From Micromonospora sp. FIMYZ51 (GTDB lineage: Bacteria > Actinomycetota > Actinomycetes > Mycobacteriales > Micromonosporaceae), in NCBI RefSeq assembly GCF_038246755.1, contig NZ_CP134706.1, forward strand, positions 3,162,001 through 3,226,000: a stretch of 64,000 nt of DNA. Reading direction: 5' to 3'. A program made the position numbers and the translations under genes. Position 1 is the first letter of the stretch; the number at the start of each line of letters is the position of its first letter. Under the pieces are notes generated by a model. The model was not told the origin of the DNA. It did no database searches and saw only the letters and a program-made list of their open reading frames with translations. Shown here in pieces: positions 23,985 through 49,943 of this stretch.

Positions 23985-24084
23985 TGGCCCATTCTCGCGC
24001 CCGATGATCCCGGCGCAGGTGGCGCAGACGGGGTCGGGATGGCGCGGTTGGTGGCAGGCCTACCAGCCCTGTTGCCGGTCGCTC

Positions 24085-24852
24085 TTACTCCCAGCGGAAG
24101 AGCAGACCCGCCACCACGGCGCCCACCACGACCGTGCCGCCGAGAGCGAGCAGGTGGGCGACCTCGACGGCGGTGCCGGCCGAGGCGGCGGAGAGGGCCT
24201 CGACGGCGGCGCCGAAGGGCAGCCAGCCGCCGATCTCGGCGAGCGGCTCGGGCAGCGCGTCCCGGCCGCCGAACATCCCGCCGAGGGCGCCGACGGCGAA
24301 GAAGATGACCAGACCGATGGCGACGGCCGAGTTCGGGGTGGGCGCGACCGCGGCGACGATCATGCCGGTGGCGTACATCGCCGCCATCGTCAGGCCGAGC
24401 ACGCCGAGCGCGGTCGCGGCGTGGGCGGGCGGGTTGGCGCCGAACACGACGAACGCGACGGTGAGCGCCCCCGCGATGCCGATGATCGTCTGGAGCAGAC
24501 CGACGATCGCCTGCGCGGCGAGGACCATGGCCGGTGACGCGGGAGTGACCGCGAGCCGGCGCAGGATGCCGCTGCGCCGGTAGTAGGCGAGGAAACTCGG
24601 CATGTTGATGATGCCGATCATGGCGATGACCATGGTGAGCACGATCGGCAGGACGAACACGTCCAGTGCCGTACGCCCGTTCACGACGACCTGGTCGGTC
24701 GCCGAGGAGGCGCTGGTCAGCAGGATCAGCAGCGGCAGGCCCAACGGGACGATCAGCCCGGCGGTGTCCCGCATGACCATCTTCGCCTCACAGCCGACGA
24801 GGATGAGCAGGGAGCGCAGCCCGGGGCGGTGCGTCGCGACCAGGGTGCTCAT
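24085..24852 (-). CDS. ABC-2 type exporter permease
   Basis: A 255-residue membrane protein of the ABC-2 (DrrB/YhhJ-like) family with six hydrophobic segments: GLIVPLGLPLLILLTSA near the start, a large loop, IVLTMVIAMIGIINMPSFLA and a C-terminal VVGAVVAGLLFRW. The LAYYRRSGILRRLAVTPASP stretch is the typical coupling loop. It forms a heteromer with the ATPase encoded just upstream (4-bp overlap of start and stop). Together they export a drug, lipid or other small amphipathic molecule. A two-component system is divergently encoded next door and is the probable controller. Confidence 0.88.
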   Translation of the reverse strand: MSTLVATHRPGLRSLLILVGCEAKMVMRDTAGLIVPLGLPLLILLTSASSATDQVVVNGRTALDVFVLPIVLTMVIAMIGIINMPSFLAYYRRSGILRRLAVTPASPAMVLAAQAIVGLLQTIIGIAGALTVAFVVFGANPPAHAATALGVLGLTMAAMYATGMIVAAVAPTPNSAVAIGLVIFFAVGALGGMFGGRDALPEPLAEIGGWLPFGAAVEALSAASAGTAVEVAHLLALGGTVVVGAVVAGLLFRWE

Positions 24853-25586
24853 GCCGTCACCTCCAGGTCCTTGCCGGTCAACGCGACGAACGCGTCGTCG
24901 AGGTTCGCCGCGCCCGTGCGCGCAACGAGACCCGCGGGGGTGTCGAGCGCGAGGACCCGGCCGGCGTCGATCACGGCGACCCGGTCACAGAGCCGTTCGA
25001 CCTCCTCCATCGCGTGACTGACCAGCAGGATGGTCACCCCGTCGGCCCGCAGCCGCTCGATCGTGCCCCACATGCGCCGTCGGGCCGCCGGATCCAGGCC
25101 GGTGGTCAGCTCGTCGAGGATCACCACGCGCGGCCGACCGGCCAGCGCCAGGGCGATCGAGAGTCGCTGCTTCTGACCGCCGGAGAGCTTCTCGAAGATG
25201 GTCCGCCGCTGCTCGGCCAGGTCGACCAGGTCCAGCAGTTCGTCGGTGGGCCGGGGCGCGGGGTAGAAGCTGCGGTACAGCTCGACCAGCTCCGTGACGC
25301 GCAGGGCATGGTGCAGGTAGGCGTTCTGAAGCTGTACGCCGAGCACCTGCCGGAGCCGGGCCCGGTCGCGGCGGGGATCGAGGCCGAGCACGCGGATCCG
25401 CCCCCGGTCGGGACCGCGCAGCCCGGCGATCATCTCGACGGTGGTCGTCTTCCCGGCACCGTTGGTGCCGAGGATGCCCATCGTCTCGCCGCTGTCGACC
25501 CGCAGGCTCACATCGACGACCGCCTGGGTGCGGCCGTAACGCTTGGCGAGGTTCTCGGCGAGGATGGCCGGCTCGGAACTGGTCAT
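24849..25586 (-). CDS. ABC transporter ATP-binding protein, DrrA-like
   Basis: A 245-residue ATPase with GILGTNGAGKTTTVEMIAG (Walker A), a Q-loop at GVQLQNAYLHHALRV, signature LSGGQKQRLSIALAL, Walker B VVILDELTTGLDPAARR (ELT replaces the more usual EPT) and switch His in ILLVSHAMEEVERL. It energises the ABC-2 permease encoded right after it. It is divergent from the histidine kinase at 25698 across a 111-bp region holding an 11-bp inverted repeat. This genetic layout (NarL-type sensor/regulator next to DrrAB-like exporter) is typical of cell-envelope stress or antibiotic detox modules. Confidence 0.9.
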   Translation of the reverse strand: MTSSEPAILAENLAKRYGRTQAVVDVSLRVDSGETMGILGTNGAGKTTTVEMIAGLRGPDRGRIRVLGLDPRRDRARLRQVLGVQLQNAYLHHALRVTELVELYRSFYPAPRPTDELLDLVDLAEQRRTIFEKLSGGQKQRLSIALALAGRPRVVILDELTTGLDPAARRRMWGTIERLRADGVTILLVSHAMEEVERLCDRVAVIDAGRVLALDTPAGLVARTGAANLDDAFVALTGKDLEVTA

Positions 25587-25621
25587 ACCCGAACGCTACG
25601 GCCGACGCCGGGACGAATCCT

Positions 25622-25660
25622 GTGCCGGAAGTAACCACCTTCGGCCATGACTTCCGGCAC
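25622..25660. promoter_or_regulatory. Inverted repeat in exporter/sensor divergent promoter
   Basis: GTGCCGGAAGT (25622-25632) and its perfect complement ACTTCCGGCAC (25650-25660) are separated by 17 nt. A -10-like TACAGT (25685-25690) lies 7 nt before the kinase ATG 25698, giving a leaderless geometry. The repeat is a good candidate site for the adjacent NarL-type response regulator. Confidence 0.6.
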
Positions 25661-25697
25661 GGGTGACCGGGGCGGTGACCGGCCTACAGTGGGGATC

Positions 25698-26801
25698 ATG
25701 CGACGTGTCGGCACGGAGGAGTGGTCGGGCCTCGCCATGCTCGTGGTGGCGGTCGCGGTCGCCGTGCCCGGCCTGTTCGGCGTCGCCGAGCTGGTGATTC
25801 CGCAGAGTTTGTGGATCGCCCTCTTCGTTCTCTTCCTCTGCGCCCTGCTCGCCTCGGTGGCCGCGCCCGCGTCGGGCCGGTCGCGCCACGTGGTGTTCGG
25901 CGTGGCGGTCGTCGCCGCCTGGGCGCTCGTGCTCTCCGCGCGTCACCTGGGGCTCCTGCCGGTCCTGCTGGTCTTCACCGCCGCGGTGAGCGTCTACCTG
26001 GTCCCGCTCTACGCGGGCCTGGTCGTGGTCGGCCTGAACACGGCGGTGATCACCCTCGTCGCGCTGCCGGCCACGTCCGCGCCCGTGGAGTTGGCCCTGA
26101 CCGTGGGCTTCTACCTGCTCATCCAGTTGGCCTCGCTGCTCAGCTCGATCACCCTGCTGCGGGAACAGCGGATGCGCCGCGAACTCGCCGCGGCGCACGT
26201 CGAACTGACGGCGGCCGGCTTCCGGCTTGAGGAATCGGCCCGTACCGAGGAGCGGCTGCGGATCTCCCGGGAACTGCATGACCTGATCGGTCACCAGCTG
26301 ACCGTGCTGACCCTCGAACTGGAGACTGCCCGGCACCTCGACGGTGCGGCGGCGCGGCGGCACGTGGAGCGCGCCGACCGGGTCGCCCGGGAACTCCTCG
26401 GCGACGTGCGCAGCACGGTGGGGCAGCTGAGAACCGAGACTCCCGATCTCGAACAGGCGCTCCGCCGGATGGCTCGTGACCTGCCGGGCCTCGACGTGTC
26501 GATCGAGGTCTCGCCCGGGGTGCGGGTGGACGAGGAACGTGGCGCGGCCTTCGTCCGCGCGACGCAGGAGATCATCACGAACACGATCCGGCACGCCGAA
26601 GCGCGTGAGCTGCGGATCTCGGTCACCGGTGACGACGGCGGCACCGTCCTCGACGCGCGTGACGATGGACGCGGCGCACGGGACCCGGTGTTCGGCAACG
26701 GGCTGCGCGGCCTCCGCGAACGATTCCAGGCCCTCGGCGGCGACCTGGCCGTCGAGGGCGAGGGCGGATTCCGGGTGACCGCCCGGGTGCCGGCGGCATG
26801 A
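25698..26801 (+). CDS. NarL-type sensor histidine kinase
   Basis: A 367-residue membrane sensor kinase. Residues 10-155 hold about five hydrophobic segments with almost no extracellular loop, so it probably senses membrane state or a membrane-embedded ligand. The HisKA_3 dimerisation motif EERLRISRELHDLIGHQLTV places the phospho-His at residue 194. The ATPase part shows EIITNTIRHAEARELRISV and GNGLRGLRERFQALGG. ATG 25698 is picked on the leaderless spacing from TACAGT. The stop overlaps the response-regulator start by 4 bp. It is divergent from the ABC-2 exporter genes and most likely controls them. Confidence 0.9.
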   Translation: MRRVGTEEWSGLAMLVVAVAVAVPGLFGVAELVIPQSLWIALFVLFLCALLASVAAPASGRSRHVVFGVAVVAAWALVLSARHLGLLPVLLVFTAAVSVYLVPLYAGLVVVGLNTAVITLVALPATSAPVELALTVGFYLLIQLASLLSSITLLREQRMRRELAAAHVELTAAGFRLEESARTEERLRISRELHDLIGHQLTVLTLELETARHLDGAAARRHVERADRVARELLGDVRSTVGQLRTETPDLEQALRRMARDLPGLDVSIEVSPGVRVDEERGAAFVRATQEIITNTIRHAEARELRISVTGDDGGTVLDARDDGRGARDPVFGNGLRGLRERFQALGGDLAVEGEGGFRVTARVPAA

Positions 26802-27442
26802 CCCGCGTGGTGGTCGTCGACGACCAGACCCTCATCCGGCAGGGCATCCGGGGGCTGCTCGAGGTCGCCGACATCGACGTGGTCGGTGAGGCCGCCGACG
26901 GCCGGGCCGCGCTCGACGTCATCGCGCGGACCGCACCGGACGTGATCCTGCTCGACCTGCGGATGCCCCGCTTCGACGGCATCTGGACGATCGAGCAACT
27001 GCGGGCCGCCGAGATCGACATCCCGGTGCTGGTGCTCACCACCTTCGACGACGACGCACTGGTGTTGGGCGCGCTCCGCGCGGGCGCCCGTGGCTACCTG
27101 CTCAAGGACGTGACGCTGGCCCAGCTCACCCGGGCCATCCACACGCTCGCCGAGGGCGGCACGCTGATCGCCCCGTCGATCACCGACCGGATGCTGCGGG
27201 CGATCCGCTCCGGACCCTCGCCGGCCGGGCCGGACGCGCCCGCCGTGCCGAGCCTCACCGAACGCGAGCAGGAGGTGCTGCGGCTGGTCGCGCACGGCTA
27301 CAGCAACCGCGAGATCGCCGGAATCCTCTTCCTCGCCGAGGGCACCGTCAAGAACCACGTCTCCACGATCCTCACCAAGCTCGGTGCCCGGGACCGGACG
27401 AACGCCGTGCTCCGCGCCCTGCACGAGGGCATCCTGGAGTAG
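26798..27442 (+). CDS. NarL/LuxR family response regulator
   Basis: A 214-residue regulator. The receiver domain has VVVVDDQTLIRQGI, phospho-acceptor Asp53 in VILLDLRMPRFDG, Thr in VLVLTTFDDD and Lys in YLLKDVTLAQL. The C-terminal LuxR helix-turn-helix reads LTEREQEVLRLVAHGYSNRE with GTVKNHVSTILTKLGARDR. It overlaps the kinase gene by 4 bp and is its cognate partner. The 11-bp inverted repeat between the kinase and the exporter genes is its likely binding site, so it probably regulates both the exporter and itself. Confidence 0.92.
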   Translation: MTRVVVVDDQTLIRQGIRGLLEVADIDVVGEAADGRAALDVIARTAPDVILLDLRMPRFDGIWTIEQLRAAEIDIPVLVLTTFDDDALVLGALRAGARGYLLKDVTLAQLTRAIHTLAEGGTLIAPSITDRMLRAIRSGPSPAGPDAPAVPSLTEREQEVLRLVAHGYSNREIAGILFLAEGTVKNHVSTILTKLGARDRTNAVLRALHEGILE

Positions 27443-27530
27443 CCCACCGGCGGCGGTCTTCCGGGCTGGCCGGTCGAAGGAGCAGCCCACCGACGGCCCG
27501 CTGCTGGCCGGCCGGTCGAACCGGACGCGC

Positions 27531-29324
27531 TCAGCCGGCCAGGGTGGCGTAGCGGCCGTTGCGGTTCAGCAGGCTGTCGTGGTCGCCGGCCTCGACGACC
27601 CGGCCGTGGTCGAGCACCACGATCTGGTCGGCGGCCCGGACCGTGGCGAGCCGGTGGGCGATGGTGATCGTGGTACGCCCCTCGGCGAGCACCTCGAACG
27701 CCCGTTGTACGGCCCGTTCGGTCTCGGTGTCCAGCGCGCTGGTGGCCTCGTCGAGCACCAGGATGCGTGGGTCCCGCAGCAGCGTACGGGCGATGGCCAG
27801 GCGCTGTTTCTCGCCGCCGGAGAATCGGTGGCCGCGAGAGCCGACCAGGGTGTCGTACCCGTCGGGCAGACCGGCGATCAGGTCGTGGATCTGGGCGGCG
27901 CGGGCGGCCTGCTCGATCTCGACGTCCGTGGCGTCCGGGCGGGCGTAGCGCAGGTTCTCCCGAACCGTGTTGTGCAGCAGGTACGTCTCCTGGCTGACCA
28001 CGCCGACGATCGCGGTCAGGTCGGCCAGGCGCAGGCCACGCAGGTCGACGCCGTCGATGGTGACCTGGCCTGCGGTCGGGTCGTACAGCCGGCTGATCAG
28101 TCCGGCGAGGGTGCTCTTGCCGGAGCCGGTCTCGCCCACCACGGCCAGGCTGGAGCCGGCGGGCACGTCGAGGGTGATGCCGGCGAGCGCGGCGGTGTCG
28201 CTGCCCGGATAGGTGAAGGTGACGTCGGTCAGCCGCAGGTGTCCGCGTACCCCGGCGGGGTCGAGGTGGACCGGTTCGGTGGGGTCGGCCACGTCCACCG
28301 GCAGGTCCAGGTACTCGAAGATCCGGGCGAACAGCGCCAGCGACGCGGCGAGCGAGACGCCGACGTTGAGCAGCCCCATCAGCGGCCGGAACAGGCCGCC
28401 CTGGAGGGTGGTGAAGGCGACCAGGGTGCCGATGCTCAGGGTGCCGGCGGTGCCGGGCAGGCCGGCGGCGAGGTAGATGACCGCCGGTACGGCGGCGAAG
28501 ATGATGCTCATCGAGGCCATCCGCCAGCGACCGGCCACCTCGCTACGCAACTCCAGGTCGACAAGTCGGGCCGAGGAGGCGGTGAACCGGTCGATGAGCG
28601 CCGGCCCGGTACCGAGGGTCTTGGCCAACTGCACCCCACTTATCGACAGCCCTTCCTCGACCGTGACGTTGAGGTCGGCGAGTTCACGCTGGCGTTGCGC
28701 GGTGATCTCGCGGCGCATCCGGGCGACCCGGCGGGTCAGCCAGATCGCCGGTGGCAGCACGACCAGCGAGACCAGGGAGAGTTGCCAGGAGAGCGCCACC
28801 ATGGCGACCGCGGTCGCGACCACGGTGGTGAGGTTGGCCGCGACGGCGGTGGCGGTGGAGGTGACCACCGACTGCATGCCACCGATGTCGTTGGTGATCC
28901 TTGACTGCACCTCGCCGGTGCGGGTGCGGGTGAAGAAGCCGAGTGACTGCCGCTGAAGGTGACTGAAGACGTCGGTACGCAGCCGGTGCATGACCTGCTG
29001 ACCGACCCGGGTGGAGAGCCAGGTCTGCACCACGCCGAGGACGGCGGTCACGGCGGCCACCGCGACCATGCCGAGGACCAGCCAGACCAGCAGGGTCACG
29101 TCGCCTTCCGGCAGGGCCCGGTCGATCACCGTACGCAGCAGGAACGGCGTGGCCATCGCGATGACCGAGGAGACCACGATGATCGTGGTGACGGCGGCCA
29201 GCGCGGGCCGGTGGGGGCTGAAGAGGCGGCCGATACGACGCAGCGACACCTGGCGGGCCTGCGCCTTCTCCTCGGCGCTGAGGGTGCGGTGACCGCGGTC
29301 GCGGCCGGAGGGGATCGGTTCCAA
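27531..29324 (-). CDS. ABC multidrug/lipid exporter (half-transporter)
   Basis: A 597-residue type IV ABC exporter with an N-terminal six-helix domain (first helix LAAVTTIIVVSSVIAMATPF) and a C-terminal ATPase: GETGSGKSTLAGLISRLYDP, signature FSGGEKQRLAIARTLL, Walker B ILVLDEATSALD, switch AHRLATVRAAD. All catalytic residues are in place, so a homodimer would be active. The start appears to be TTG 29324, with AAGGTGG 6 nt upstream; ATG is absent nearby. It is divergent from a MarR gene with a near-perfect 21-bp palindrome in the gap, so the exporter is probably derepressed by its drug substrate. Confidence 0.9.
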   Translation of the reverse strand: MEPIPSGRDRGHRTLSAEEKAQARQVSLRRIGRLFSPHRPALAAVTTIIVVSSVIAMATPFLLRTVIDRALPEGDVTLLVWLVLGMVAVAAVTAVLGVVQTWLSTRVGQQVMHRLRTDVFSHLQRQSLGFFTRTRTGEVQSRITNDIGGMQSVVTSTATAVAANLTTVVATAVAMVALSWQLSLVSLVVLPPAIWLTRRVARMRREITAQRQRELADLNVTVEEGLSISGVQLAKTLGTGPALIDRFTASSARLVDLELRSEVAGRWRMASMSIIFAAVPAVIYLAAGLPGTAGTLSIGTLVAFTTLQGGLFRPLMGLLNVGVSLAASLALFARIFEYLDLPVDVADPTEPVHLDPAGVRGHLRLTDVTFTYPGSDTAALAGITLDVPAGSSLAVVGETGSGKSTLAGLISRLYDPTAGQVTIDGVDLRGLRLADLTAIVGVVSQETYLLHNTVRENLRYARPDATDVEIEQAARAAQIHDLIAGLPDGYDTLVGSRGHRFSGGEKQRLAIARTLLRDPRILVLDEATSALDTETERAVQRAFEVLAEGRTTITIAHRLATVRAADQIVVLDHGRVVEAGDHDSLLNRNGRYATLAG

Positions 29325-29357
29325 GGGGAACCACCTTTCGCCGGAAACAATGTTGAG

Positions 29358-29399
29358 GTTACCTCATCATGAGGTAACAACCGCATTCCGTGTTACCGT
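29358..29399. promoter_or_regulatory. MarR operator and leaderless promoter
   Basis: GTTACCTCAT (29358-29367) and ATGAGGTAAC (29369-29378) form a perfect palindrome around one central base. TACCGT (29394-29399) ends 6 nt before GTG 29406, and the palindrome covers the matching -35 position, so binding would block transcription of the MarR gene. The site is also about 35 bp from the exporter start, so it can control both genes. Confidence 0.75.
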
Positions 29400-29405
29400 A
29401 TTCCG

Positions 29406-29837
29406 GTGACCGAGCCCACCACCGGCAGCGCTGACGACGAGAGCCTGGCGGAGACGTTCTGGGCGGTGGCGTCACGGCTGCGCCGGCAGATCCGCGAGTC
29501 CCTCGCGCCCTGGGCGGTCACCCCGAGCCAGTCCCGGGCGCTCGGCGTGCTGGTCCGGCACGGCGAGGTGCGCCCCGGCGTGCTCGCCGAGCAACTGCGC
29601 ATCGCGCCCCGCTCGGCCACCGAGGTCATCGACGATCTCCAGGCCCGTGGGCTGGTCACGCGCCGACCCGATCCGGCCGACCGGCGGGCCACCCTGGTCG
29701 CGCTCACCGAGCAGGGGCACCGGGTCAGCGCCGACATCCGGGCGGCGCGCCGGGCCGAGGCGGACCGCTTCTTCGGTCACCTCGACGACGCCGACCGGGC
29801 CGAGTTGACCCGCATCCTGCGTACCCTGCGCGCCTGA
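29406..29837 (+). CDS. MarR family transcriptional regulator
   Basis: A 143-residue MarR regulator of normal family length: AVTPSQSRALGVLVRHG before the DNA-reading part, GVLAEQLRIAPRSATEVIDD as helix-turn-helix, and the wing RRPDPADRRATLVALTEQG. GTG 29406 has no Shine-Dalgarno sequence and sits 6 nt behind a -10-like TACCGT, so a leaderless start is likely. It is divergent from an ABC exporter and the shared gap contains a 21-bp palindrome that fits a MarR dimer. It is best read as a drug-responsive repressor of that exporter. Confidence 0.9.
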   Translation: MTEPTTGSADDESLAETFWAVASRLRRQIRESLAPWAVTPSQSRALGVLVRHGEVRPGVLAEQLRIAPRSATEVIDDLQARGLVTRRPDPADRRATLVALTEQGHRVSADIRAARRAEADRFFGHLDDADRAELTRILRTLRA

Positions 29838-29960
29838 TCTGCGTGGGAGAACGCGGACGCCTCCCGGCCGCTGGCCACGCAGGGTTGCCGTCGATGGCAG
29901 CGCCGCCGCAACCGGCAAATCACCCGAGCCGGGAGGGCGCTGTCGGCTTATGCTGTGGCC

Positions 29961-30050
29961 GTGGCACGCTTCGCGGTTTCACTCCGTTCCGTCCTTCGAC
30001 GTGAGCGAACCTTGGCTCGCCTGCGAGCCGTCCTCGACCGCCTGAGCTGA
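29961..30050 (+). CDS. Arg-rich leader peptide upstream of argS
   Basis: A 29-residue reading frame from GTG 29961 to TGA 30048-30050, with eight arginines, at positions 3, 9, 13, 14, 16, 20, 22 and 27 (five of them CGA or CGT codons, less common in such GC-rich DNA). The -10-like TATGCT (29949-29954) ends 6 nt before the GTG, so it would be read from the very 5' end of the message. Downstream are mutually exclusive hairpins and the arginyl-tRNA synthetase gene. This is what an attenuation leader sensing charged tRNA-Arg should look like. A 31-codon frame from ATG 29950 overlaps it but has only one Arg codon. Confidence 0.6.
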   Translation: MARFAVSLRSVLRRERTLARLRAVLDRLS

Positions 30051-30062
30051 CCACCTGCGGCG

Positions 30063-30154
30063 ACCGGCGGATCGATCCGCCTGGTCTTCGTGGTCGTCGA
30101 TCGATCCGCTCTCCGCGCATCCCCCGGAAGATCCACCGCGTGTGCGCGTGGATC
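30063..30154 (+). promoter_or_regulatory. Candidate argS attenuator structures
   Basis: Three elements follow the leader peptide. First, GGCGGATC/GATCCGCC (30066-30081, extended by ACC/GGT to 30063-30085) is self-complementary. Second, GCGGATCGATC (30067-30077) can instead pair perfectly with GATCGATCCGC at 30099-30109, so these two forms exclude each other. Third, a hairpin at 30130-30154 (GATCCAC/GTGGATC plus GCG/CGC, loop TGTG) lies just before GGAGCGAG and the ATG. There is no U-run, so it may act on translation or by Rho rather than as an intrinsic terminator. Confidence 0.5.
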
Positions 30155-30176
30155 GGAGCGAGATTGGCGTACCTTC

Positions 30177-31895
30177 ATGGATCTTGAGAAGTTGCTTGCC
30201 GACCGGCTGGCGCAGGCGTTCTCGGCGGTGGCCGGCGGACCGGTCGACCCGGTCGTGCGGCGGTCGCAGCACGCGGATTACCAGTCCGACGCGGCGCTGT
30301 CCCTGGCCCGCCGGCTCGGCCGTCCACCACGGGACATCGCCACCGAGGTCGTCGATCGGGCGCAGTTGGCGGACCTGTGTTCGGCGGTGGCGGTGTCCGG
30401 TCCGGGCTTCATCAACCTGACCGTCGCCGACCCGGCGCTCGACACGCTGCTGTCGACGATGGCCGCCGACCACCGGCTCGGCGTCGCGCCAAGCGCCGCG
30501 CCGGAGACGGTGATCGTGGACTACTCGGCGCCGAACGTGGCAAAGGAGATGCATGTCGGTCACCTCCGGTCGACAGTCATCGGCGACGCCACCGTCCGGC
30601 TGCTCACCTGGCGCGGGCACCGGGTGATCAAGGCCAATCACCTGGGGGACTGGGGCACCCCGTTCGGGATGCTCATCGAGCATCTGCTCGACCTGGGCGA
30701 GTCGGCGGCGGCCCACGAGTTGTCCGTCGGTGACCTGGACTCGTTCTACAAGGCGGCTCGGGTCAAGTTCGACGCCGAGGACGAGTTCAAGGAGCGGGCC
30801 AGGCTCCGGGTGGTCGCCCTGCAAGGCGGCGACGAGTTGACGCTGCGGTTGTGGCGGCTGCTGGTCGCCGAGTCGGAGAAGTACTTCCTCACCGTCTACG
30901 ACCAGCTCGGGGTGCTGCTCACCGGGGAGGACTTCTACGGCGAGAGCTACTACAACGACATGCTCGCCCCGGTGACCGACGAGTTGGACCGGCTCGGATT
31001 GCTGCGCGACAGCGGCGACGCGGCCTGCGTCTTCCCGGACGGGTTCACCGGCCGCGACGGGCAGCCGCTGCCGATCATCGTGCGCAAACGCGACGGCGGG
31101 TACGGCTACGGCGCCACCGACCTCGCCGCGATCCGCCACCGCACCCAGAATCTCGGTGCCACCCGGCTGCTCTACGTCGTCGGCCTGCCGCAACGCCAGC
31201 ACTTCGAGATGGTGTACGCGGTGGCCCGGCAGGCCGGTTGGCTGCGCCCACCGGCGACGGCCGAACACGTCGGCTTCGGCTCCATCCTCGGCGCGGACGG
31301 CAAGATGCTGCGCAGCCGGGCCGGCGGCTCGATCAAACTCGTCGAACTGCTCGACGAGGCCGTGACCAGGGCCGCCGAACTGGCCCGGCAGAAGAACCCC
31401 GAGCTGCCCGACGCGGCCATCGCCGAGGTCGCCCGCGCGGTCGGCATCGGCGCCATCAAGTACGCCGACCTGTCCACCGACCGGGTCAAGGACTACGTCT
31501 TCGACTGGCAGCGGATGCTCTCCCTCGACGGCAACACCGCCCCGTACCTGCAATACGCCCACGCCCGGATCCGGTCCATCTTCCGGCGCGCCGGCATCGA
31601 CGAGTTCGCCGCCGGCCCGATCGTGATCGGGCACCCGGCCGAACACGCCCTCGCCCTCGAACTGGCCAACTTCGGCACCGTCGTCACCGGCGTCGAACGC
31701 ACCCTGGAGTTCCACCGCCTCGCCGGCTACCTGCACACCCTCGCCGCCACCTTCAGCGGCTTCTACGAACACTGCCCGGTGCTGCGCGCCGAGGGCGAGG
31801 TACGCGACAGCCGGCTGGCCCTGTGCGACCTCACCGCCCGGGTCCTGCGCCGGGGGCTCTACCTGCTCGGCATCGCCACCCCGGACCGGATGTAG
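30177..31895 (+). CDS. argS: Arginyl-tRNA synthetase, E. coli-like type
   Basis: A 572-residue class I synthetase that charges tRNA-Arg. The N-terminal Add1 domain (VSGPGFINLTV) is followed by the HIGH-type motif VDYSAPNVAKEMHVGHLRST, then WGTPFGMLIEHLL, LPQRQHFEMVY, the KMSKS-region ADGKMLRSRAG and a C-terminal anticodon-binding domain with DWQRMLSLDGNTAPYLQYAH. This catalytic motif is like E. coli ArgS, whereas the usual mycobacterial/actinomycete form has SANPTGPIHIG instead, so this may be a second, acquired copy. ATG 30177 is about 15 nt after GGAGCGAG. It has a 340-bp leader with an Arg-rich peptide and stands alone between MarR and GntR genes. Confidence 0.95.
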   Translation: MDLEKLLADRLAQAFSAVAGGPVDPVVRRSQHADYQSDAALSLARRLGRPPRDIATEVVDRAQLADLCSAVAVSGPGFINLTVADPALDTLLSTMAADHRLGVAPSAAPETVIVDYSAPNVAKEMHVGHLRSTVIGDATVRLLTWRGHRVIKANHLGDWGTPFGMLIEHLLDLGESAAAHELSVGDLDSFYKAARVKFDAEDEFKERARLRVVALQGGDELTLRLWRLLVAESEKYFLTVYDQLGVLLTGEDFYGESYYNDMLAPVTDELDRLGLLRDSGDAACVFPDGFTGRDGQPLPIIVRKRDGGYGYGATDLAAIRHRTQNLGATRLLYVVGLPQRQHFEMVYAVARQAGWLRPPATAEHVGFGSILGADGKMLRSRAGGSIKLVELLDEAVTRAAELARQKNPELPDAAIAEVARAVGIGAIKYADLSTDRVKDYVFDWQRMLSLDGNTAPYLQYAHARIRSIFRRAGIDEFAAGPIVIGHPAEHALALELANFGTVVTGVERTLEFHRLAGYLHTLAATFSGFYEHCPVLRAEGEVRDSRLALCDLTARVLRRGLYLLGIATPDRM

Positions 31896-31935
31896 CAGTC
31901 GAGCGTCGGGGAACCACAGCGAGGAGCGGGCCCGG

Positions 31936-31965
31936 CCGCCGCCACGCCGGTCGGCGTGGCGGCGG
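31936..31965 (+). terminator. Hairpin terminator after argS
   Basis: CCGCCGCCACGCCG (31936-31949) and CGGCGTGGCGGCGG (31952-31965) are perfect 14-bp arms separated by two bases. It lies 41 bp after the argS stop and ends shortly before the GntR promoter (CAGACT at 31970-31975, 7 nt before GTG 31983). Confidence 0.7.
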
Positions 31966-31982
31966 GTGGCAGACTCGTCGGG

Positions 31983-32648
31983 GTGAACGAGGTGGCCGCG
32001 TCGCCGGTGGACGGCGAGTTGGAGAGTGTCAGTCTGGTGGACCTCGCGGTTTCCCGGCTGACCCGGGAGATCCTCAGCGGCAAGAGTGATCCGGGTGAAC
32101 GCCTGGTGGAGGAGCAGCTCACCCGACGGCTCGGGATCAGCCGGGCACCCCTGCGGGAGGCACTGCGGTTGTTGGCCCAGCAGGGGTTGGTCGAGCACAT
32201 TCCCCGGCGCGGGGTCCGGGTCGCCACCCTCTCCGACCGGGACGTGCGGGAGCTGTACGAGCTGCGTGACGTGCTGGAACGGTTCGCGGTGCGGACAGCG
32301 GTCCCGGTCCGGCGGGAGAGCGACCTCGTCGGGCTGCGGGCGGCGCTGGACCAGATGCGGGAGGCGACCCGGGCCGGTGACCGGCTGGCCGTCGCCGAGT
32401 CACACCGGACGTTCCACGTCGCGCTTGTGGGGCTCGCCGGCAATCGGCAGCTCTCCGCGGTGTACGACTCGATCCTGATGAAGTTGCAGCTCTACATGGC
32501 GATAAACCTGCGGCGCGAGGCGGAGACGGCGCAGCCGCTGGACGGGGTGTACCGGCACGAGCGGCTCTTCGAGGCCGTCGCCGGGGGAGACCCGGAGGCG
32601 GTCCTGGCCGTGCTCTCCGGGCACGGGGCGCGCTCCTACCTCGGGTAG
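31983..32648 (+). CDS. GntR/FadR family regulator (FCD domain)
   Basis: A 221-residue regulator. The N-terminal winged helix spans about residues 15-80 (LTREILSGKSDPGERLVEEQ, LGISRAPLREALRLLAQQGL, IPRRGVRVATLS), and the C-terminal all-helical FCD domain contains ELYELRDVLERFA, AESHRTFHVALVGLAGN and a late HERLFEAVAGGDPEAV; these His/Asp positions usually bind a metal with a carboxylate ligand. The GTG start has CAGACT 7 nt upstream and no Shine-Dalgarno sequence. It stands directly before the amidase/cysteine-hydrolase operon, whose promoter region has a GTTACAT/ATGTAAC repeat, so it is most likely its local repressor. Confidence 0.9.
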   Translation: MNEVAASPVDGELESVSLVDLAVSRLTREILSGKSDPGERLVEEQLTRRLGISRAPLREALRLLAQQGLVEHIPRRGVRVATLSDRDVRELYELRDVLERFAVRTAVPVRRESDLVGLRAALDQMREATRAGDRLAVAESHRTFHVALVGLAGNRQLSAVYDSILMKLQLYMAINLRREAETAQPLDGVYRHERLFEAVAGGDPEAVLAVLSGHGARSYLG

Positions 32649-32701
32649 GACCGATGCCGGTCCGCGCGGCCGGGTGGTGCCCGGCCGCGCGTCATCGCGC
32701 C

Positions 32702-32750
32702 GTTACATTTCGCGCGTCTGCATGTAACCGCACTGTCGACAATCGACTGT
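32702..32750 (+). promoter_or_regulatory. Promoter/operator of the allophanate-type operon
   Basis: GTTACAT (32702-32708) and ATGTAAC (32722-32728) are perfect 7-bp arms separated by 13 nt. A second small repeat GTCGA/TCGAC lies at 32735-32747. GACAAT (32738-32743) ends 7 nt before ATG 32751 without any Shine-Dalgarno sequence, so the transcript may be leaderless. The GntR regulator just upstream is the likely binder. Confidence 0.55.
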
Positions 32751-34283
32751 ATGCCAGAACGGATCGGATCGGTCTCCGAGCTGCGGTCGGCGTACCTCCA
32801 TGCCGGACTGACCCCCGTCGAGCTGGTCGAACGCGTCCTGGCCGGGCTGGCCGGCCGGGACGGGGGACCGGTCTGGATCAGCACCCTGTCGGCCGAGCAC
32901 CTGCGCGCCCGGGCCGAGTCGCTGACCCGCGAGGGCGATCCGGTCACGCTGCCGCTGTACGGCATCCCGTTCGCGGTCAAGGACAACATCGACGTCGCCG
33001 GGCTGGTCACCACGGCCGGCTGCCCGGAGTTCGGATACCGGGCCGTGGAGGACGCGCCAGTGGTACGCCGGCTGCTCGACGCCGGTGCGCTGCTCGTCGG
33101 CAAGACCAACCTGGACCAGTTCGCCACCGGGCTGACCGGTGCCCGTTCGCCGTACGGCAGCTGCGAGAGCGTCTTCGGCGGCGGCCTCATCTCCGGCGGT
33201 TCCAGCTCCGGCTCGGCGGTGGCGGTCGCCGCCGGCCAGGTCTGCTTCGCCCTGGGTACGGACACCGCCGGCTCCGGTCGGGTGCCGGCGGCGCTGAACG
33301 GGATCGTCGGGCTGAAACCCACCCGGGGCCTGCTCAGCACGGCCGGGGTGGTGCCGGCCTGCCGCTCGTTGGACTGCGTCTCGGTCTTCGCCACCGATGT
33401 CGCCGGTGCGCTGGCGGTGCTGCACACCGCCCGTGGCATCTCGGCGGCCGATCCCTGGGGGCGGTCGCTGCCCGCGGAGCGGGTGGTGGCCCGCATGCCG
33501 GGGACGCTACGCCTCGGCGTACCCCGGGCAGAAGACCTCGAATTCTTCGGCGATGCCGGGCAGGCGGTCCGGTTCGCCGCCGGGGTCCAGCGGCTGCGTG
33601 CGCTGGTCGCGCGGACCCGTCAGGTGCCGCTGGCCGCCTTCACCGAGGCGGGCGACCTGCTCTACCAGGGACCCTGGGTGGCCGAGCGGCTCACCGGGCT
33701 GGACGGCTTCCTCCGGGCACATCCCGAGGCGGTCCTGCCGGTCACCCGGGCCGTGCTGGAGACCGGGCGGCGCTACGACGCGATCGACGCCTTCCGGGGC
33801 TGGCACCGGCTGCGCGAGCTGCGGGCCCGGGTCGACCAGCTGTGGCAGGAGATCGATGTGCTGGTGGTGCCCACCGTCGGCACCACCTTCACGCTCGACG
33901 AGATCGCCGAGGATCCGATCGGGCGCAACGCGATGCTCGGCCGCTACACCCAGTTCGCGAACCTGCTCGACCTGGCCGCGGTGACCGTGCCGAACGGGTT
34001 CACCGCCGCCGGCCGCCCGGCGAGCCTGACCCTTGTCGGCCCGGCCTGCACCGACACCACCCTGGCCCGGCTCGCCGCCGCTTTCGGCGGCGAACCCACT
34101 GCCGTCAGCACCGAGCCCACGGTTGTCGGCGCCGGACCCACGGTTGTCGGCGCCGGACCCACGGTTGTCGGCACCGAGCCCGCTGCCGTCGGCAGCGCAT
34201 TCGTCGAGGACGGGGAGCAACCGCTCGCCGCCGCACAGCTGACCCCGGGAGGAGAGCGAGGATGGGCCGGATCGGGCCGGTAA
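32751..34283 (+). CDS. atzF: AtzF-like allophanate hydrolase (amidase domain only)
   Basis: A 510-residue amidase-signature enzyme. Triad: Lys77 in [14 protein letters not shown], the cis-Ser in ISGGSSSGS (about residue 152) and nucleophile Ser175 in [19 protein letters not shown]. The strings [17 protein letters not shown] and [17 protein letters not shown] are typical of allophanate hydrolase, which splits allophanate to ammonia and CO2 via N-carboxycarbamate. Full AtzF has a further C-terminal domain of about 150 residues; here, after about residue 447, it is replaced by five 7-residue repeats and a short tail. The stop overlaps the next gene by 22 bp. It heads the operon of two cysteine hydrolases, a permease and an AtzH-like protein. 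The exact ureide substrate is inferred from these neighbours. Confidence 0.85.
34092..34196 (+). repeat. In-frame 21-bp tandem repeat in amidase gene
   Basis: Five 21-bp units, the middle three being almost identical (GGACCCACGGTTGTCGGC at their core), encode [28 protein letters not shown] and EPAAVGS. It sits where the C-terminal domain of a full allophanate hydrolase would begin. The period keeps the frame. Confidence 0.9.
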
Positions 34284-34948
34284 CGGCCAACCCCTATTCC
34301 TGGCCGTACGACGGCGCGGCCGACACCGCGCGTACCGCCCTGCTCTGCATCGACTGGCAGACCGACTTCTGCGGGCCGGGCGGCTACGTCGACGCGATGG
34401 GCTACGACATCGGGCTGACCCGGGCCGGCCTGCCGGCCACCGCCCGGCTGCTGGACCACGCCCGATCGCTCGGCATGCTTGTCGTGCACACCCGCGAGGG
34501 GCACGATCGGGACCTGTCCGACCTGCCGGCGAACAAACGCTGGCGCTCGGCCCGCATCGGTGCCGAGATCGGCGCGGCCGGCCCGTGCGGTCGGATCCTG
34601 GTCAAGGGCGAACCCGGCTGGGAGATCGTGCCCGAGGTGGCCCCGATACCCGGCGAGGTGGTCATCGACAAGCCGGGCAAGGGTGCCTTCTACGCCACCA
34701 ACCTCGACCTGGTGCTGCGTACCCGGGGCATCACCCACCTGATCCTCACCGGCATCACCACCGACGTCTGCGTCCACACCACCATGCGGGAGGCGAACGA
34801 CCGGGGCTACGAGTGCCTCATCCTCTCCGACTGCACCGGCGCCACCGACAAGGGCAACCACGAGGCGGCGCTGCACATGGTGACCATGCAGGGCGGCGTC
34901 TTCGGCTGCGTCGCCACCTCCGAGGACGTCATCGCCGCCATCAGTTGA
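34262..34948 (+). CDS. biuH: Cysteine hydrolase, biuret hydrolase-like
   Basis: A 228-residue isochorismatase-superfamily amidohydrolase. Catalytic triad: Asp31 ([11 protein letters not shown]), Lys137 ([14 protein letters not shown]) and Cys170 ([11 protein letters not shown]). Its nearest known functions are biuret hydrolase (biuret to allophanate and ammonia) and ureidoacrylate amidohydrolase RutB. The neighbouring allophanate-hydrolase-like amidase favours the biuret or a related ureide reading. ATG 34262 follows GGGAGGAGAG and overlaps the amidase stop. A second, related cysteine hydrolase follows 11 bp later; they share about half their residues by eye, including the whole DKPGKGAF block, and may form a mixed oligomer or take different substrates. 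Confidence 0.8.
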
Positions 34949-34959
34949 GTGAGGTGCGC

Positions 34960-35652
34960 ATGTTGACCATCGCCGCCGCGCGGCCTTCCCCGTACACCTT
35001 CGATCCCTCGACCACGGCGCTGCTCGTCATCGACATGCAGCGCGACTTCCTGGAACCCGGTGGTTTCGGCGAGAGCCTGGGCAACGACGTGAGTCAGTTG
35101 CGGCGGACCATCGCGCCCCTGACGGCGCTGCTGGCCGGCGCCCGCGCGGCGGGTCTGACCGTCGTGCACACCCGCGAGGGGCACCTGCCCGACCTCTCCG
35201 ACTGCCCGCCGGCCAAGCTCAACCGGGGCGCACCGAGCACGCGCATCGGTGATCCCGGACCCAAGGGGCGGATTCTGATCCGGGGCGAGTACGGCCACGA
35301 CATCGTCGACGAACTCGCGCCGCTGCCCGGCGAGCCGGTCATCGACAAGCCGGGCAAGGGCGCCTTCCACGCCACCGGACTGGCCGGGCTGCTCGCCGAA
35401 CGGAAGATTCACAGCCTGCTGATCACCGGGGTCACCACCGAGGTGTGCGTGCACACCACCGTCCGGGAGGCCAACGACCGCGGGTACGAGTGCCTCGTGC
35501 TCGCCGACTGCGTCGGCTCCTACTTTCCCGAGTTCCACCGGGTCGGGCTCGACATGATCGCCGCCCAGGGCGGGATCTTCGGATGGGTCGCCGACTCGAC
35601 GGACGTGCTCGCCGTGCTGCCCACCACCCCCGTCTTGCAACCCTCCTCCTGA
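34960..35652 (+). CDS. Second isochorismatase-family cysteine hydrolase
   Basis: A 230-residue paralogue of the preceding enzyme. The triad is intact: Asp in [15 protein letters not shown], Lys in [15 protein letters not shown], Cys163 in [19 protein letters not shown]. It differs in the substrate-facing loops (for example [17 protein letters not shown] and [14 protein letters not shown], where the first has [15 protein letters not shown]), so it may act on another ureide of the same path. ATG 34960 is 5 nt after GAGG; a GTG two codons upstream is possible. It sits between the first hydrolase and the permease with small gaps on both sides, clearly in one operon. Confidence 0.82.
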
Positions 35653-35664
35653 CCGGGAGCAGCC

Positions 35665-37320
35665 ATGGTCTCCACCAGATCCACCGCCGCCGGGCCCGCG
35701 TACTGGGTGCGCGGCGACACCAACGCGTTCTTCGGGTTCGGCGTCAACGTCCTGGTCAACGTGCTCACCCTGACCGGGCTCTGTGTCTTCGTGGTGAACC
35801 TGCCGGAGCGGGAGGTGTTCGGCACGATCCTGCCGGCGCTCGGCATCGCCCTGGTCGCCGGCAACATCTACTACACGTATCTGGCCCGACGGCTGGCCCG
35901 CCGGGAGCAGCGCAGCGACGTGACCGCCCTGCCGTACGGGCCGAGCGTGCCGCACATGTTCATCGTCATCTTCGTCATCATGCTGCCGATCTTCCTGCGT
36001 ACCGGCGACCCGATCCGGGCCTGGGAGGCGGGGCTGGCGTGGGCCTTCATCATCGGCGTGATCGTGTTGATCGGCGCGTTCGTCGGCCCGTACATCCGCC
36101 GGTACACACCCCGGGCGGCGCTGCTCGGCACCCTTGCCGGCATCTCCATCACCTTCATCTCGATGAACCCGGCCGGTCAGATGTGGCGGCTCGCCTGGAT
36201 CGCCCTACCGGTCTTCGCACTGCTGCTGATCGGCCTGCTCACCGACGTCAAGCTGCCGTTCAACTTCCCGATCGGGCTGGCCGCCCTGCTGCTCGGCACC
36301 GCGATCGGCTGGCTCGGCGGAGCGATGTCGGTGCCGGACGTCACGGCGGCGGCGCGGGACATCGCGTTCGCCTTCCCCAGCCTCCAACTCGACCTGCTCT
36401 GGCGCGGCCTGACCGACATGGCGCCGCTGCTGGCCACCGCCATCCCGCTGGGCGTCTACAACTTCACCGAGGCGATGACCAACGTGGAGAGCGCGGCCAC
36501 CGCCGGGGACAGCTACAACCTGCGCAGCGTACTGCTCGCCGACGGCGCCGGTGCGGTGATCGGCTCGGCGCTCGGCTCACCGTTCCCGCCGGCGGTCTAC
36601 GTCGGTCATCCGGGTTGGAAGGCGGCCGGCGGGCGGAGCGGCTACTCGATGGCGACCGGGATCGTCATCGCGCTGCTCTGCTTTCTCGGCATGTTCTCCC
36701 TGCTCGGCGCGATCTTCCCGACCGCGGCGATCGTGCCGATCCTGCTCTACATCGGTCTCCTGATCGGCGCGCAGGCCTTCCAGGCCACGCCCCGGGCGCA
36801 CGCCGCGGCGGTGGTGGCGGCGCTGATTCCCAACATCGCGGCCTGGGCGACCGGGCAGATGAACAACGCCCTGGCAGCGGCGGGCACCACTGCGGCCCAG
36901 GTCGGCGACGAGGCCCTGGCCGGTGCCGGGGTGGTCTACGACGGCCTGCGCATCCTCGGTGAGGGCGCCATCCTCGCCGGCCTGGTGCTCGGCGCGATCG
37001 TCGCCTTCATCATCGACAAACGCTTCGTCCAGGCGGCGATCTTCGCCGCTTCCGGCGCGGTACTGGCCTTCATCGGTCTGATCCACGGCGAGGAGGTCCG
37101 GTGGAACGCCAACGGGCAGGTCGCGCTCGGCTACCTCTTCGTGGCGGTGATCTGCGCGATCTTCGCGCTCGGCAAGTATCCGCCCCGGGTCCCCGAGCCC
37201 GCGGAAATCGAGCTGGACCGCCGGCACGGCGGTACCGCGCCGGCTCCGGCTGACGACACCGAGCCGGCCGATGGCACCGGGTCGGTCCGTGCCGCCGATC
37301 GGGGGCCCGTCTCCGCATGA
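35665..37320 (+). CDS. NCS2-like nucleobase/ureide permease
   Basis: A 551-residue membrane protein with about 12-14 hydrophobic helices, resembling the xanthine/uracil permease superfamily of the AzgA-like branch: VTALPYGPSVPHMFI, ATAIPLGVYNFTEAMTNVES with the central acidic residues, and TPRAHAAAVVAALIPNIAAW. The tail (last 45 residues) is cytoplasmic, acidic and low in complexity. It starts at ATG 35665, 12 bp after the second cysteine hydrolase (GGGAGCAGCC upstream), and overlaps the AtzH-like gene by 4 bp. It probably imports the nitrogen compound that the operon breaks down; the substrate is unknown. Confidence 0.8.
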   Translation: MVSTRSTAAGPAYWVRGDTNAFFGFGVNVLVNVLTLTGLCVFVVNLPEREVFGTILPALGIALVAGNIYYTYLARRLARREQRSDVTALPYGPSVPHMFIVIFVIMLPIFLRTGDPIRAWEAGLAWAFIIGVIVLIGAFVGPYIRRYTPRAALLGTLAGISITFISMNPAGQMWRLAWIALPVFALLLIGLLTDVKLPFNFPIGLAALLLGTAIGWLGGAMSVPDVTAAARDIAFAFPSLQLDLLWRGLTDMAPLLATAIPLGVYNFTEAMTNVESAATAGDSYNLRSVLLADGAGAVIGSALGSPFPPAVYVGHPGWKAAGGRSGYSMATGIVIALLCFLGMFSLLGAIFPTAAIVPILLYIGLLIGAQAFQATPRAHAAAVVAALIPNIAAWATGQMNNALAAAGTTAAQVGDEALAGAGVVYDGLRILGEGAILAGLVLGAIVAFIIDKRFVQAAIFAASGAVLAFIGLIHGEEVRWNANGQVALGYLFVAVICAIFALGKYPPRVPEPAEIELDRRHGGTAPAPADDTEPADGTGSVRAADRGPVSA

Positions 37321-37802
37321 CAAGCATGGAGATCGACCGCCCCGACGTGGTGGCCGAGGTGACGGCGGCTTTCGCCGCCTACGAACAGGCACTTGTCGAC
37401 GGCGACCCGGACCGGATCTGCGGATTCTTCTGGGACTCCGGCCGGACCGTACGCTTCGGCATCGCCGACCATCAGTACGGCCTCGACGAGCAGCACAAGT
37501 GGCGCGCCGCGCAACCTCCGCTGCCACCCGGCCGCCGGCTGGTCGATCCCCTGGTCACCACCTTCGGCCCGGACGTCGCGGTGGTCACCACCCGATTCGG
37601 GTACGCCGGCACCGCCGCCACCGGCCGGCAGACCCAGACCTGGGTACGCCTTCCGGCCGGCTGGCGCATCGTCACCGCCCACGTCTCCACGCCGCTGCCA
37701 CCGACTCCTCCCGTTGACCATGAGGTTGACGGCAGTCTGGAGATCAACGACTGCCGCCAACCTCATGATCAACGCTCAGGGGTGGGGCGGGCTAGAAGGT
37801 GA
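37317..37802 (+). CDS. atzH: AtzH-like DUF3225 (SnoaL-type) protein
   Basis: A 161-residue NTF2-fold protein like AtzH from cyanuric-acid pathways, where it is proposed to convert 1,3-dicarboxyurea to allophanate. Residues I recall as needed in AtzH, Tyr22 and Arg46, fall at the same numbers here (FAAYEQAL and GRTVRFG). Other family strings are CGFFWDSG and GLDEQHKWRAAQPP. The body ends near residue 132 (THVS-like AHVSTPLP); the remaining tail is encoded through a 61-bp interspersed repeat and looks random. It overlaps the permease gene by 4 bp and converges with the S15 hydrolase, overlapping it by 11 bp. Its presence supports an allophanate-producing operon. Confidence 0.8.
   Translation: MTSMEIDRPDVVAEVTAAFAAYEQALVDGDPDRICGFFWDSGRTVRFGIADHQYGLDEQHKWRAAQPPLPPGRRLVDPLVTTFGPDVAVVTTRFGYAGTAATGRQTQTWVRLPAGWRIVTAHVSTPLPPTPPVDHEVDGSLEINDCRQPHDQRSGVGRARR
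37713..37773 (+). repeat. 61-bp GTTGATCATGAGG interspersed repeat, copy 1
   Basis: Long inverted repeat: GTTGACCATGAGGTTGACGG on the left pairs with CCGCCAACCTCATGATCAAC on the right (24-nt arms, two mismatches) around a 13-nt centre. It matches the copy at 58757-58817 at 55 of 61 positions without gaps. It overlaps the 3' end of the AtzH-like gene and lies between converging genes. Confidence 0.85.
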
Positions 37803-49848: not shown

Positions 49849-49943
49849 ACTGCCACCCAAACTGCCGCTGCCACACCTGCCACCGTATCCGGCGGGCCCG
49901 ACCATGATCCGCCGAGGTCACCTGCTGCGCCGACGCCCGAGGA

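Follow-up and report, generated by a model that had tools for sequence, protein, structure and literature searches.

A leaderless ORF rich in arginine codons precedes a second, E. coli-type argS gene in Micromonospora and is a probable attenuator

A leaderless Arg-rich ORF upstream of an auxiliary argS gene

In the 64-kb stretch of DNA analysed here (the window), the gene argS2 (30177..31895, + strand) encodes an E. coli-type arginyl-tRNA synthetase of 572 residues. Translated from the ATG at position 30177, the product contains the three ArgRS domains (PF03485, PF00750, the latter with 344 bits, and PF05746), passes the NCBI argS model TIGR00456 with 454 bits and has as its best PDB chain 4oby, which we take to be E. 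coli ArgRS (549.7 bits over residues 1–572). It carries the E. coli-type motif APNVAKEMHVGHLRS on which the preliminary description of this DNA had relied. The same description had regarded argS2 as a second argS; indeed, a standard actinobacterial argS with the motif SANPTGPVHIGG is present elsewhere in the genome (locus L002), and argS2 is not the only argS of this strain.

Counting E. coli-type argS genes at E ≤ 1e-100, which reaches down to approximately 46% identity, we found them in 103 of the 150 genomes of the family, and standard argS in 145 of the 150. Both types are present in 102 of the 103 carriers of the E. coli type, genome G074 being the exception; note that in one of these 102 (G033) the match to standard argS shows only 45% identity. 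Since the standard argS coexists with it, argS2 counts as an auxiliary gene in this strain and, probably, in the majority of the other genomes. As a second gene beside a housekeeping argS, it fits the picture of an auxiliary aminoacyl-tRNA synthetase (aaRS).

The −10 promoter element TATGCT (29949..29954, + strand) is followed 6 nt downstream by a GTG codon, which is both the predicted transcript start (29961, + strand) and the first codon of a putative leaderless leader-peptide ORF (29961..30050, + strand) ending with the TGA at 30048–30050. The 29 codons, which encode MARFAVSLRSVLRRERTLARLRAVLDRLS, include the eight Arg codons reported in the preliminary description (in order, CGC CGT CGA CGT CGA CGC CGA CGC), three of them being CGA. 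The strict leader pattern defined below has a single match on the + strand of the window, at the argS2 leader, and a single match on the − strand, at 49876 (VWQRQFGWQCDRRDLARSQHRVDRRFRHPAAYRPAAA), the latter being probably due to chance.

Conservation of the leader among relatives

We scanned the 330 bases located 5′ of argS in 171 de-duplicated relatives with a strict pattern, namely a TANNNT element, a gap of 4–10 nt and an ORF of 6–45 codons in which some stretch of eight residues contains four Arg or more. This pattern is found in 64 of the 171 relatives versus none of the 171 reverse complements, and in 0–2 of the 171 sequences in each of six dinucleotide shuffles. Over 424,464 strand-bases of related loci it yields 18 matches, the real leaders of these loci included. 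A looser rule, complemented by cases added by hand, gave a set of 72 leaders. In this set the gap between TANNNT and the start codon is 6 nt in 37 leaders and 7 nt in 24 (61 of 72 altogether), a spacing which, judging from the sequence, is that of leaderless transcripts and agrees with the leaderless start proposed at the outset; five of the 72 have no TANNNT 4–10 nt upstream of the start codon used.

The Arg codons are conserved in many orthologous leaders. The peptides end, for instance, with ...GALRRRRSRDRLR or ...VIERRRIVAAR, a complete example being MFCFSVRRRRPHGRR, and an RRRR stretch is invariant in 12 distinct Micromonospora leaders; the window leader has RR, not RRR. The Arg codons are also of an unusual kind: CGA accounts for 142 of the 481 Arg codons of the leaders (29.5%) versus 1.5% of the 3691 Arg codons of the same argS genes, i.e. 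an approximately 20-fold excess, and, of the 64 leaders that contain RRR, 62 have CGA as the first codon of the Arg run. In the window, CGA makes up three of the eight Arg codons of the leader versus none of the 50 in argS2. A slow, rare codon heading the Arg run would sharpen sensing.

In an argS tree of 148 rows, 66 of which have the leader, leader presence changes 8 times versus a mean of 48.7 for shuffled labels, a clustering that is eased by the inclusion of near relatives. All 66 leader-bearing rows belong to a single clade of 92 rows, which is that of the window, the remaining 26 having no recognised leader; within the narrower argS clade of the window, the leader is kept in 31 of 32 rows. 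In one relative, L093, the leader, located in the last 190 bases 5′ of argS, is devoid of Arg codons but retains the promoter, the start codon and the two hairpins described below.

Such a leader was found in none of ten standard-argS loci (the ten best matches, all from the same genus), and a role of the leader in regulating the standard argS was rejected on this ground. Likewise, none of 80 further loci, drawn from 100 among the matches listed (73 from other families and seven from the genus of the window), passes the strict scan. Six of the seven same-genus loci belong to a second argS lineage, in which the Arg-codon ORF does not start after a TANNNT element, and the seventh, L235, has a leader whose clustered Arg are too few for the scan. 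A looser search, run without a control and requiring just RRR within a small ORF, matches 23 of the 80, and we take the matches other than these six as noise. The second E. coli-type lineage (L222, L226, L228, L230, L231 and L232) displays 51–53% identity to argS2 within the same genus. Its upstream Arg-codon ORF ends with RRSRLRRR or RLRLRRR, reads CGA CGA CGA TAG immediately followed by TCGT, and has an in-frame ATG preceded by GGTGGAG, not by a −10 element.

Hairpins and alternative pairings in the leader RNA

The predicted fold of the leader RNA comprises (i) a hairpin inside the ORF (30014..30029, + strand), pairing 30014–30019 with 30024–30029; (ii) hairpin 1 (B:C; 30062..30086, + strand), with the sequence GACC-GGCGGATCGATCCGCC-T-GGTC, 11 nt past the leader stop codon; and (iii) hairpin 2 (30092..30173, + strand), whose arms, 30092–30112 and 30150–30173, close onto the argS start region. 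In hairpin 1, positions 30066–30081 (GGCGGATCGATCCGCC) are self-pairing. Segment B (30067..30077, + strand; GCGGATCGATC) is also the perfect complement of segment D (30099..30109, + strand; GATCGATCCGC), its alternative partner, which lies within the 5′ arm of hairpin 2. The preliminary description had correctly given both mutually exclusive pairings with their coordinates, as well as the hairpin at the argS start region, which ends just before the ATG at 30177. A conserved motif, GAGATTGGCGTACC (30160..30173, + strand), lies immediately 5′ of argS. Note that the arms given for hairpin 2 are those of the minimum-energy structure predicted for the entire leader and that its 5′ arm shifts when a ribosome is placed at the stop codon. 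The fold of region 29962–30190 is modestly better than those of shuffled sequences (z −2.03, 8 of 200 shuffles being as good).

No U-tract follows hairpin 1 (2.10 T per 9 nt versus 1.58 expected, 48 loci), and the leader consequently does not have the U-tract after a 3:4 hairpin that characterizes the classical intrinsic-terminator attenuator. Since hairpin 1 lacks this tract, an early stop of transcription and the closure of the argS start are both possible outputs.

Hairpin 1 is shared by two leader layouts, type 1 (Micromonospora and kin, 31 loci including the window) and type 2 (Actinoplanes and kin, 17 loci). Its core is nearly invariant, and at the outermost base pair tested, which varies, pairing is maintained in 37 of the 48 loci. 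Swapping segments between species gave z values of −8.2 for B:C, −4.3 for B:D, −3.3 for D:S and −3.8 for C:S over the 48 loci, with no covariation between the ORF tail and B (z +1.2); the effects of relatedness partly remain in these values, as in those of the within-type and shuffle tests. Within types, the swap test supports B:C in both (p < 0.0002 in type 1, 0.022 in type 2) and gives, for B:D, p values of 0.029 in type 1 and 0.34 in type 2, the mean z of B:D relative to shuffled D being −2.1 and −1.6, respectively. The Arg run is also found without hairpin 1, in Catellatospora-type leaders and in very short leaders such as L172, L175 and L182.

Folding of the nascent leader

We folded nascent RNAs ending just past B for the 48 loci, the ribosome being modelled by masking. 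With a ribosome on the first Arg codon of the run, B is paired with ORF RNA with a value of 0.71 versus 0.28 without ribosome; the value of 0 obtained with the ribosome at the stop codon is a consequence of the masking of the ORF and not a result. The difference between the stalled and the ribosome-free states is +0.38 for the 31 type-1 loci and +0.53 for the 17 type-2 loci versus −0.06 and −0.09 for codon-shuffled ORFs, and on average 15% (type 1) and 6% (type 2) of the codon shuffles reach the real difference. The ribosome-free value is 0.31 and 0.23 for the real sequences of types 1 and 2 versus 0.63 and 0.63 for the shuffled ones. In these models, this low ribosome-free value seems to be the unusual feature family-wide, as if the Arg run guarded the ORF tail. 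The stalled value is less unusual: 33% of the type-1 and 15% of the type-2 codon shuffles attain it, as do 29% and 28%, respectively, of the sequences in which the tail was shuffled. On average, the modelled folding of the nascent RNA agrees with a classical attenuator, where B is either captured by the tail or left to pair with C. Taken alone, the window leader barely differs between the two states (0.59 stalled versus 0.53 free, 28% of the shuffles reaching this difference), so that the case for a switch in this copy rests on its relatives.

At equilibrium, ribosome-masked folding of the 72 leaders leaves the accessibility of the argS start unmoved (means of 0.37, 0.38 and 0.38), and in full-length type-1 leaders hairpin 1 has means of 0.94 without ribosome, 0.81 with a stalled ribosome and 0.90 with the ribosome at the stop codon. 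Since hairpin 1 usually prevails whatever the ribosome state, with a small loss upon stalling, and since access to argS is static, any switch must be kinetic, and we did not base the mechanism below on equilibrium folding. We also considered the direct switch between B:C and B:D put forward in the preliminary description. The complementarity between B and D is real; however, it covers just part of the structure, folding designates the ORF tail as the likelier competitor for B, and no ribosome position was found that removes C while freeing B for D. The direct switch was therefore rejected.

A candidate attenuation mechanism and its alternatives

The conserved leader with its Arg and CGA bias, the hairpins with alternative pairings and the presence of a second argS suggest, as far as sequence and folding models go, that a ribosome-mediated attenuator sensing the charging of Arg-tRNA probably controls this auxiliary, and probably horizontally acquired, argS. 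The transcript would begin at the GTG codon, with the ribosome loading immediately on the leaderless ORF. When charged tRNA-Arg is ample, the ribosome would reach the stop codon, and the ORF tail would be covered, or later held by the Arg run, so that B would pair with C. With hairpin 1 formed and hairpin 2 closed on the argS start, expression would be low. When charged tRNA-Arg falls, chiefly the tRNA reading CGA, the ribosome would stall at the Arg codons and leave the ORF tail free; the tail would then capture B before the polymerase makes C, hairpin 1 would not form and argS2 would be expressed. A stop at hairpin 1, given the lack of a U-tract, would perhaps be factor-assisted. We think that such a premature stop of transcription is about twice as likely as the exposure of the argS start by an opened hairpin 2.

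The latter output would rely on the same sensor and, though doubtful, is the most serious alternative: the stalled ribosome would mask or redirect the leader RNA, hairpin 2 (D:S) would open and the argS start would be freed. In mycobacteria, the opening of a hairpin reportedly frees the ribosome site in the case of polycysteine leaderless ORFs. A translational output would give a role to hairpin 2, which takes in the region just 5′ of the argS ATG, and would agree with the fit of the D:S partners in type 2 (swap test p 0.005; mean z −2.2 relative to shuffled D, with 16 of 17 loci below −1), whereas D:S is unsupported within type 1, that of the window (p 0.24; mean z −0.6, 9 of 31 loci below −1), the caveat on relatedness given above applying to both. 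It would also suit the missing U-tract at hairpin 1 and the short leaders L172, L175 and L182, which leave scant room for a terminator, but it does not explain why the mean accessibility of the start stays unchanged in ribosome-masked folding, and it is not obvious how stalling would make B available to D.

That the Arg codons are not read at all, the Arg-rich ORF being a by-product of a GC-rich and CGN-rich RNA structure through which structure or a protein regulates argS2, appears unlikely. The start codon lies 6–7 nt past the −10 element and shares its reading frame with the Arg cluster across leaders of various lengths and layouts; Catellatospora-type leaders, which lack hairpin 1, still have CGA CGA CGA; and the strict pattern is absent from the 171 reverse strands, to which the 20-fold CGA excess has to be added. 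These features weigh against a mere by-product despite several observations that would fit it: variable sites in the 12 distinct 29-codon Micromonospora leaders number 14, 12 and 7 by codon position, which is not the usual coding pattern, third positions being no more variable than the others; the Arg run itself joins the predicted RNA pairing; and the window leader is unconvincing by itself in folding.

Slightly less probable still is a reading of the leader as a relic or as a constitutive 5′ region, with argS2 expressed from a degenerate −10 element (GAGATT) just before its ATG. Several leader-free orthologues have a −10-like TAGATT or TAGGTT 6–8 nt 5′ of argS, at a place where most leader-bearing type-1 loci have GAGATT or GAGATC, and judging from these sites it looks as if the attenuator and a new promoter had been placed before a once leaderless argS. 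The window retains the A and the last T of this element, and L093 lost all its Arg codons and kept promoter, start and hairpins, both in line with a relic; yet most Micromonospora rows of the alignment read GAGATC, without the final T, and have kept the leader, as have nearly all rows of the window's narrower argS clade. Finally, a T-box was rejected, as no Rfam family matches at gathering score in the window, nor does any, T-box included, up to an E-value of 1 in 29850–30230.

Comparison with known systems

The preliminary description had seen in a peptide-type attenuator of an aaRS gene a break with the usual Gram-positive scheme. This was too strong, as leaders of leuS, trpS, alaS and thrS have been published for Streptomyces (PMC8079986, PMC1262725); the kind is therefore known, and what appears to be new is its specificity for arginine. 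In the parts of these two sources that we covered, argS is absent among the Streptomyces cases, and our look-up of the literature on leader peptides or attenuation for ArgRS or argS, a coverage from which subscription papers largely fall out, returned no argS case. An Arg/argS member of this class thus appears new within the literature covered.

In the accessible text of the reannotation of the S. lividans genome (PMC8079986), leader peptides precede leuS, trpS, alaS and thrS; eight leader peptides are listed there (two Leu, two Trp, Ala, Ile, Met and Thr). LeuL2, TrpL2 and ThrL are described as leaderless, and the last two are followed by hairpins that lack a U-rich stretch. The word arginine is absent from the main text. 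As in our case, these aaRS leaders are short ORFs with cognate codons before an aaRS gene, with a TAnnnT −10 element. A survey of amino-acid and aaRS operons in Actinobacteria, as far as it was accessible, predicts attenuators for trpS2 and leuS and reports no conserved structures for other pathways (PMC1262725). It also covers the ileS T-boxes, which likewise place an aaRS gene under RNA control by tRNA charging (PMC1262725); the argS2 leader, for its part, matches no Rfam family, T-box or other, and sensing would proceed via the codons of its ORF. In contrast to the S. lividans aaRS leaders, the leader described here belongs to a second argS common to several genera, and the rare CGA codon dominates.

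Another auxiliary synthetase gene of an actinomycete, encoding a TrpRS, is reportedly that of S. coelicolor. This antibiotic-resistant Streptomyces enzyme is described as being under ribosome-mediated transcriptional attenuation (Vecchione and Sello 2010, as cited in the part of PMC4787780 covered), the control that we propose for argS2. The amino acid is Trp, not Arg, and a drug, indolmycin, is known there, whereas none is known for argS2. The leaderless cysteine ORFs of mycobacteria act through the release of a ribosome site. From the parts of the reports covered (Shell 2015, PMC4633059; Canestrari 2020), they resemble the argS2 leader as leaderless sensory ORFs with a codon run in an actinobacterium; they differ in that the codons are Cys and the targets metabolic operons. 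Lastly, orf34 of Salmonella speF also has consecutive Arg codons and senses arginine via ribosome pausing; according to the text available, it controls ornithine decarboxylase, not an aaRS, with an output that involves Rho, RNase G and access to the ribosome site (PMC6386406).

Acquisition, possible role and genomic neighbourhood

That argS2 was acquired, as first suggested, is probable from its identity across genera, its placement in the tree and the shared leader–argS unit. The protein displays 90–91% identity to its counterparts in another genus (L084–L086), 89% to that in a third genus (L087) and 71–76% to 12 same-genus matches, and E. coli-type argS is absent from three other genomes of the genus; the standard argS of the window's genome shows 86–95% identity among 15 same-genus rows. 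The argS tree groups argS2 with the genera of L084–L087. DNA similarity with L084–L088 spans from inside the leader (29992–30000) to the argS stop codon (31893–31896), and the flanks of L084–L088, over 1.5 kb on each side, show no similarity to positions 24001–38000 of the window. The leader and argS2 are thus common to several genera as one unit.

As to the role of this unit, we tentatively suggest, as a speculation less probable than its opposite, a horizontally exchanged emergency ArgRS encoded in a single transcription unit with its own sensor of Arg-tRNA charge, which rare CGA codons would tune to their cognate tRNA-Arg. The unit would be widespread in one actinobacterial family and kept against undescribed natural inhibitors of the housekeeping ArgRS, or arginine antimetabolites, met in soil. 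A limited look-up of the literature, including passages of a review, returned no natural ArgRS inhibitor. An attenuator of this kind would extend the control of aaRS genes by leaderless leader peptides to arginine and to a second argS beside the housekeeping gene. The leader could serve as a reporter of Arg-tRNA charging in actinomycetes, and the leader–argS2 unit could be a lead to natural inhibitors of ArgRS, whose presence would make a spare enzyme useful. The existence of several leader layouts, of a leader that has naturally lost its Arg codons (L093) and of leader-free orthologues makes the switch directly testable.

A near sister genome (G107) lacks positions 27436–31950 of the window and has 106 other bases in their place; this block contains argS2 together with the genes of an ABC transporter and a MarR-type regulator. 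The latter two neighbours are also present in the same-genus genomes G303, G065, G317 and G045, in which similarity stops at 29832–29871. In one relative, a tRNA-Gly gene adjoins the 3′ end of argS (L087, 1396–1469), which may hint at an insertion site. Downstream of argS2, in-frame repeats (PTVVGAG-like) are present at approximately 34100–34220, near the end of ORF 32751–34283, whose product is presumably amidase-like.
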